Shown piece after piece: positions 63,145 to 63,485 of a stretch of 64,000 nucleotides of DNA (positions within the stretch are counted from its first letter, which is position 1; each line of letters opens with the position of its first letter). Source of the stretch: a virus; the IMG/VR virus record IMGVR_UViG_3300044733_003647, positions 62,001 through 126,000 of that record; one strand, given 5' to 3'. The notes under the pieces are model-generated. The model was not told the origin of the DNA. It searched no databases and saw only the letters and a list, made by a program, of their open reading frames with translations. The position numbers were made by a program, and so were the translations under genes.

Positions 63145-63218
63145 GGGGGTATAACTTAGTGGTAAAGTATCCGGCTTTTAACCGGAAAACCAGAGTTCAA
63201 TTCTCTGTGCCCCTACCA
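63145..63218 (+). tRNA. tRNA-Lys (UUU)
   Basis: Anticodon loop CTTTTAA, acceptor GGGGGTA/TGCCCCT with two G-U pairs, T-loop TTCAATT, encoded ACCA, which also opens the next stalk. Confidence 0.88.
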
Positions 63219-63329
63219 TATAAAAACACATTGTCATGCAGCACAGCCGAATCTGTGTGTAACTCCTAGGCGTAACCTATTGTGAGAAATAGGGGAGTGC
63301 AATTCTCATCAGTGTGTTTCTATATGGTA
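63214..63329 (+). ncRNA. Stalk RNA C, closed by a 20-bp inverted repeat
   Basis: 63214-63233 pairs with 63310-63329, with one A-C mismatch and one G-U pair. The left arm starts in the 3' end of tRNA-Lys. Internal hairpins: CACAG/CTGTG, and CTCC...CCTATT/AATAGG...GGAG. Same layout as RNA B with unrelated sequence. Confidence 0.6.
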
Positions 63330-63331
63330 AA

Positions 63332-63485
63332 TTATTTGTTGAAAGCCTGACAGAAAGTGCTTAACCAGCGGCCTAACTCTCAAGGTAATACCAACCCTTG
63401 CACTTATTGCTGTGGTGGCAATCGCTTCCAAGGGGACCACTTTATTACTAGGTCTTAAACAGTAGAGAGTGCTTTCAACAAATAA
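63332..63485 (+). ncRNA. Stalk RNA D, closed by a perfect 15-bp inverted repeat
   Basis: TTATTTGTTGAAAGC (63332-63346) pairs with GCTTTCAACAAATAA (63471-63485). Internal hairpins: CAAGG/CCTTG and ATTGC/GCAAT. It begins two bases after RNA C, so it is the only stalk RNA not adjoining a tRNA 3' end. No frame or tRNA inside. Confidence 0.6.

Follow-up and report, generated by a model that had tools for sequence, protein, structure and literature searches.

Stalk-closed RNAs with exchangeable cores between the tRNA genes of large phages

Phage T4 encodes two small stable RNAs, C and D (species 1 and 2, rnaC/rnaD; 139 and 119 nt; hereafter T4 RNAs C/D), at the end of a T4-type tRNA cluster, and the T4 record names no function for them. 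RNAs that lie flush between tRNAs can be freed by tRNA processing alone, as in mitochondrial tRNA punctuation and tRNA-gRNA arrays. GOLLD and ROOL, structured RNAs of phages and prophages, are often found near tRNA islands, and GOLLD often exceeds 800 nt, according to the passages on them in PMC12286853. Arrays with repeated tRNAs and variable spacers were reported in 2023 (section on arrays in PMC10910872).

We analyzed a stretch of 64,000 nucleotides, hereafter the window, which corresponds to bases 62001-126000 of a virus record of 156,657 bases. A tRNA array begins at its right end and extends past the last base of the window (locus L003, with 27 tRNAs called in a 19-kb stretch). The spacers between these tRNAs contain RNA-like elements closed by long stems, called here stalk RNAs, whose features are collected in Table 1.

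Table 1. Stalk RNAs, neighbouring tRNA genes and promoter-like sites at the right end of the window (window positions)
Feature	Position	Strand	Remarks
Promoter and leader before tRNA-Gln	61440..61491	+	sigma70-like promoter TTGACA-17-TACAAT (61440-61468); boxA-like leader (61475-61491)
tRNA-Gln(UUG)	61506..61579	+	CCA end is the base of stalk A
Stalk RNA A	61575..61785	+	24-column stem 61575-61598 / 61762-61785; includes UGCCA end of tRNA-Gln
Promoter and leader before tRNA-Leu	62754..62823	+	sigma70-like promoter (62754-62781); boxA-like leader (62807-62823); upstream of B, C and D
tRNA-Glu(UUC)	62916..62991	+	CCA end is the base of stalk B
Stalk RNA B	62987..63138	+	perfect 21-bp stem 62987-63007 / 63118-63138; includes UACCA end of tRNA-Glu
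tRNA-Lys(UUU)	63145..63218	+	CCA end is the base of stalk C
Stalk RNA C	63214..63329	+	20-column closing stem 63214-63233 / 63310-63329; core with internal hairpins
Stalk RNA D	63332..63485	+	perfect 15-bp stem 63332-63346 / 63471-63485; not anchored on a tRNA
tRNA-Tyr	63558-63650		downstream neighbour of the C/D pair

Stalk RNAs of the window

A first-pass annotation of the window had placed two stalk RNAs, C and D, in tandem between tRNA-Lys and tRNA-Tyr. Both are present as claimed, two bases apart, and the coordinates of their arms were confirmed. The stem of D is perfect over its 15 bp. That of C, described as a 20-bp stem with one mismatch, comprises 18 Watson-Crick pairs, one U-G wobble and one A-C mismatch, so that the description holds if the wobble is taken as a pair. 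The folds were compared with those of 200 dinucleotide shuffles, yielding z scores of -6.28 for B, -4.58 for A, -4.15 for C (0/200 shuffles as good) and -2.81 for D (1/200 as good), i.e., an excess that is clear for A, B and C and smaller for D.

A feature that had been overlooked is that stalks A, B and C all begin on the CCA of the upstream tRNA, namely tRNA-Gln, -Glu and -Lys. The 5′ base of stalk C is the UACCA 3′ end of tRNA-Lys. As C thereby overlaps the five final bases of the tRNA, its stalk pairs the tRNA discriminator base and the CCA. In a predicted joint fold of tRNA-Lys and C, the cloverleaf and the stalk coexist with zero unpaired bases between acceptor stem and stalk, and the CCA is paired. 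Stalks of the A and D types were sought elsewhere and matched only contigs of the same phage, with no independent homologue; A and D are therefore assigned to the family by their architecture alone. Several further spacers likewise yielded no independent homologue.

Other elements of the same array were recorded. The small spacer between D and tRNA-Tyr (window 63486-63557) has an 83%-identical relative in locus L087 (13083-13151), beside a tRNA-Asp. An RNA-like spacer, E, follows tRNA-Asp (window 63953-64000, continuing to L003 5954-6157); its homologues are found in dozens of loci at varying array sites, such as the Arg/Ile gap in L041 and the Asn/Thr gap in L016, and blastn of E against reference phages gave no match. 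Just outside the window, about 0.9 kb downstream in the same genome, lies F (L003 6158-6249), a second member of the C-stalk family with a stem of 16 columns and a loop of 60. A tRNA-sized RNA after tRNA-Gly(UCC) (L003 9127-9203) has, by eye, a 7-bp acceptor-like stem and a CCA and lacks an ordinary T-arm; similar sequences occur in about 15 other loci. Two tRNAs missed by ARAGORN were found with Rfam (L003 6691-6762 and 9646-9715; 41.5 and 30.6 bits), both showing CAT at the anticodon position by eye.

Conservation of the stalk in phage tRNA arrays

To survey the family, 80 loci were fetched via the DNA polymerase of the phage and four via the left arm of C, and stems were then sought in the array spacers. 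Many of the spacer stems in these arrays start on CCA, and one set, C included, has the arms CCATATnnAAACACATT / AGTGTGTTTnnATATGG. The strict C-arm pattern matched at least 119 viral contig stretches, and a looser pattern with a longer gap matched at least 119 further ones; zero matches to the strict pattern were found in 84,980 bacterial and archaeal genomes. A total of 893 stem matches were obtained on both strands of 316 loci, and 881 of them have a tRNA within 1 kb. We kept 472 matches in tRNA direction (246 loci), dropping seven ambiguous ones, the remainder being the mirror reading. This gave 402 distinct elements, a count inflated by sequence relatedness and by the arm pattern used for fetching most loci. 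Their median length is about 96 nt (range 65-191). A locus contains at most nine elements, and tandem runs of three to five occur without a tRNA between them.

The C-type stalk sequence CCAUAUnnAAACACAUU / AGUGUGUUUnnAUAUGG is conserved over hundreds of elements, and the interiors vary in length and sequence. Arm conservation is partly by construction, because most loci were fetched by the arm pattern; the fair tests are the pairing of the free columns and the polymerase-fetched loci. Among the 121 distinct elements with exact arms, the first free column pairs in 120 (mean 66 and maximum 79 in 2000 shuffles) and the second in 43 (mean 33, maximum 42), the latter count being low because an A-C mismatch is common there.

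The B stalk represents a second conserved type, distinct from the C type. In an alignment of 14 B-type sequences, 27 of 43 pairs changed on both sides, as did 13 of 36 in an alignment of seven C-type sequences, and 0/500 shuffles reached either value; homologues of C show covariation in both stalk and core. The CCA/UGG base is kept in the 10 of 14 B-type RNAs that overlap tRNA-Glu. The other four, located 264, 638, 72 and 1 nt from the nearest upstream tRNA, have other bases in place of CCA/UGG, which pair with each other at most positions. This indicates that what is kept is the closed stem, CCA being used where a tRNA is available. Loss of the stems in close relatives, which the first-pass annotation would have counted against these RNAs, was not seen, as compensatory changes keep them in the 14 B-type and seven C-type sequences, with the caveat that an element after tRNA-Lys is present in only 3 of 10 polymerase-fetched loci. 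The same annotation had proposed a family defined by shape, with four unrelated sequences sharing one architecture. The family with a long stalk and small hairpins is real and far larger than proposed, but it is not defined by shape alone, since the sequence of the C stalk is conserved; similarly, A to D are unrelated as wholes, but C has many relatives with the same stalk, including F in the same genome.

The carrier phages measure 157-355 kb, and their DNA polymerases fall into two distant lineages. Among 17 virus records, the DNA polymerase is 51-100% identical to that of the window phage in seven, its own included, and only 26-40% identical, in pieces, in nine; one has no match. The window phage polymerase is of the cyanophage/T4 type, with at most 51.7% identity to the named phages listed. 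In blastn searches of the window array, of tandem element runs and of B against reference phages, no stalked element was among the matches listed. An apparent match to an isolate, Bordetella phage PHB04, obtained with the sixth tandem run, involved only an unstalked RNA lying between two elements. This RNA-like sequence is 75% identical between vB_BbrM_PHB04 (L320 4001-4112), where no feature is annotated, and L234 (3329-3437), where it lies between two stalk RNAs.

The position of the stalk relative to the tRNAs was analyzed in the 402 elements. Of these, 207 start on CCA and 93 stop where the next tRNA starts; 64 do both. Counted from the first C of CCA, the helix is 17-21 long in 185 of the 207 CCA-abutting elements, about two turns. 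The remaining relevant group, 166 elements flush with no called tRNA, could not be freed by tRNA cleavage alone. Fifteen tRNA-Lys(CUU) genes (e.g., L248 7468-7542) are joined to the next tRNA by CCA-TAT-GG, which looks like the outer palindrome left over from a shortened stalk.

The arms might instead be terminal inverted repeats of short MITE-like mobile DNA that inserts at tRNA ends, which would account for conserved ends around variable interiors and for the observation that related phages differ in the presence of an element at the same site. However, the arms are asymmetric and always in tRNA direction: the U-G wobble at column 15 is found in tRNA orientation in 315/402 elements and in reverse orientation in none, and the A-C mismatch in 158/402, oriented as the tRNAs are. 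Symmetric DNA repeats would not explain such a stalk. Moreover, the outer pairs change by compensation, and the interiors are conserved structured RNAs. Twenty-five filled sites have an empty counterpart elsewhere; by eye, the element replaces the whole spacer (tRNA-CCA/TAT...ATAT/GG-tRNA), without target duplication in any pair, some of the pairs being duplicates and some carrying extra sequence or not fitting this form. We thus disfavour the MITE-like explanation as very unlikely.

Core classes and preference for particular tRNAs

Loose blastn clustering sorted the 402 interiors into 223 core classes, 148 of them singletons. In all 14 classes with at least five members, core pairs changed on both sides, from 2/18 up to 14/26. 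Cores are found in varied surroundings: 27 of the 33 classes with at least two tRNA-adjacent members occur behind at least two different tRNAs, and the 94 elements behind tRNA-Lys represent 69 core classes. Relatives of C are found behind tRNA-Glu, -Gln or -Leu, or away from tRNAs, and an identical C is present in L084 and L087, where the tRNA order is unlike that of the window.

A recognisable T-arm occurs in 41/402 elements belonging to 22 classes, with 0.2 expected from shuffled interiors. This would fit decayed or remodelled tRNA genes, in which an old acceptor stem would survive as the inner stalk and the cores would be leftover D, anticodon and T arms, and T4 RNA C likewise ends in a T-arm beside an acceptor-like stem. 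Nevertheless, that arrangement is not general, as the other 361 elements have no recognisable T-arm and C is not among the T-arm elements listed, and decay would not keep compensatory changes in the cores. Such an origin appears most improbable.

The polymerase-fetched loci, chosen without regard to stalks, were used to determine which tRNAs precede them. CCA-anchored stalks of any sequence follow 22 of 393 tRNAs in these loci, i.e., tRNA-Glu in 12/12 cases, tRNA-Gln in 5/9, tRNA-Lys(UUU) in 3/10, and all others in 2/362 (Fisher p 1e-23, relatedness ignored). A control search for stems started inside tRNAs gave 1/1179. Over all loci, which were in part fetched by the stalk pattern, the figures are 108/165 for Lys, 87/175 for Glu and 35/147 for Gln, with a total of 343/3958. 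The preferred tRNAs, Lys(UUU), Glu(UUC) and Gln(UUG), have UUN anticodons, and these three tRNAs have the modified s2U34 in common. Regardless of whether a stalk follows, G-U predominates as the 1-72 pair of tRNA-Lys, -Glu and -Val in these phages, and U-U as that of tRNA-Gln. A weak 1-72 pair was rejected as the cause of the preference, because tRNA-Val(UAC), with G-U in 87/127 genes, is as weak there and yet almost stalkless (1/127).

One rival explanation is that the stalks are tRNA-processing spacers that direct or pace the separation and 3′ maturation of tRNA-Lys, -Glu and -Gln, the cores being idle. The strong isoacceptor bias, the stalk flush with both the tRNA CCA and the GG of the next tRNA, and the many different cores at one tRNA-Lys site are all as such spacers would have them. 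Idle cores are at odds with the conservation of core sequence and compensatory changes across phages and tRNA contexts, and a role in pacing tRNA processing is at odds with the 166 elements that abut no called tRNA and with the tandem runs devoid of tRNAs. We regard this explanation as possible but unlikely.

Another explanation links the preference to host defence. Phage tRNAs have been proposed to counter tRNA nucleases, tRNA-Lys(UUU) being cut by PrrC and AriB according to the passages of PMC10264068 and PMC12409363 on these enzymes, and CCA tails are cleaved by Cas12a3 according to the corresponding part of PMC12851939. The stalk RNAs might be decoys, or stalk-capped tRNA precursors with the CCA hidden in a duplex, that blunt nucleases directed against tRNA-Lys, -Glu or -Gln or against CCA tails. 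Along with the choice of Lys(UUU), Glu and Gln, the fast exchange of cores and the pairing of the CCA in the predicted joint fold of tRNA-Lys and C are consistent with this. Most cores are unlike tRNA, however, with a T-arm in 41/402, and cores also occur away from tRNAs, which makes the explanation doubtful; by analogy with these nucleases, a counter-defence role is a reasonable guess, not a result.

Proposed expression and relation to described RNAs

Promoter-like sites with 11-12 of 12 matches are located at 61182, 61440 and 62754, and the latter two are followed by TGTTCTTTAAAAATTTA, which we take to resemble the boxA of rRNA operons. In total, 43 boxA-like sites were found in 36 loci, 41 of them within 60 nt of a tRNA start. 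When searched in cellular genomes, the boxA pattern matched contig ends of some Beta- and Gammaproteobacteria, but also many unrelated genomes rich in A and T, and no host can thus be named by it.

We propose that stalk RNAs are modular small-RNA genes inside phage tRNA operons, composed of a common stalk and a separately evolving structured core, a reading to which we assign a probability of roughly 0.5. At the level of sequence, the stalk, its anchoring on CCA, the conserved arms, the covariation of stalk and core, the exchange of cores among tRNA contexts and phages and the tRNA preference are established. The stalk is a closing helix of about two turns whose base borrows the CCA of the upstream tRNA when abutting it and, in many elements, also uses the first GG of the downstream tRNA. 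The following steps are ordered by falling confidence. First, and most confidently, the elements and the tRNAs would share transcripts that start at strong promoters and carry a boxA-like leader, under antitermination. Second, RNase P would cut at the downstream tRNA, and the other cut would be made by host RNase III in the helix or by tRNase Z at the CCA; the products would be the mature tRNA plus a discrete RNA of some 65-210 nt whose ends are protected. RNase III was sought in 17 phage records without a match, using a control that was positive in 8 of 14 known genomes, and an RNase III step would thus need the host enzyme. Third, the stalk may insulate the fold of the core and serve as a common handle. 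Fourth, and least confidently, the cores might target host or defence factors; their variety and ready exchange would then be explained.

A bolder form of this proposal is that stalk RNAs constitute an exchangeable arsenal of RNA effectors, in which the two-turn stalk with the CCA of a UUN tRNA docks, releases and swaps cores that neutralise host immune or translation factors, like anti-defence protein islands. We put this forward tentatively, as an improbable extension of the modular-gene reading.

For decades, work on phage tRNA arrays has dealt mainly with the tRNAs; the gaps between them hold an RNA family in which a single shell is combined with at least 223 core classes. The link to Lys, Glu and Gln ties stalk RNAs to tRNAs attacked by immune nucleases. 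With this link, an old question, namely why tRNA arrays and RNAs such as T4 RNAs C/D are carried by phages, becomes directly testable. Judged from their sequences, the RNAs between the tRNAs of many freshwater phages have the appearance of a set of interchangeable phage RNA genes that has not been described before. We found no description of the family in the literature, which was covered mostly by listing and included few subscription journals. Rfam returned 10 matches in the window, all tRNA, and no stalk RNA reached any gathering score; at E values up to 1, no match covered A to D in the L003 array. In 12 further loci, all of the matches among 150 of 193 were tRNA, save one GOLLD and one tmRNA locus. 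The latter is a betaproteobacterial-type tmRNA (RF01850, 141 bits; also RF04321) on the minus strand near the tRNA array of a phage contig (L287 5117-5468).

The variable spacers of the arrays described in PMC10910872 are similar in size to stalk RNAs; its section on arrays mentions no stem, conserved shell, CCA pairing or structured cores. As with tRNA-punctuated RNAs, processing of the tRNAs would release those stalk RNAs that lie flush between two of them. Unlike tRNA-punctuated RNAs, stalk RNAs have a long helix that pairs the tRNA CCA and persists in non-adjacent elements. With GOLLD and ROOL, stalk RNAs share the vicinity of tRNAs, but those RNAs are much larger and have their own conserved folds, as the passages on them in PMC12286853 describe. 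One array contains both kinds, with a GOLLD RNA at L230 6034-6499 (206 bits) that encloses an Rfam tRNA match.

T4 RNAs C/D are, together with GOLLD and ROOL, the closest precedents. Like T4 RNAs C/D, stalk RNAs come from the tRNA cluster of a large phage of the T4 type, and the T-arm beside an acceptor-like stem at the end of rnaC has counterparts in some stalk RNA cores. In contrast, the predicted folds of T4 RNAs C/D have no closing stalk of 17-21 bp, and neither anchoring on an upstream CCA nor a common shell with exchangeable cores was seen. The window array matched 246 of 50,697 phage records by blastn, T4 being absent among the 40 of the 246 that were listed. If T4 RNAs C/D prove to be of the same kind, stalk RNAs would belong to an already known kind.
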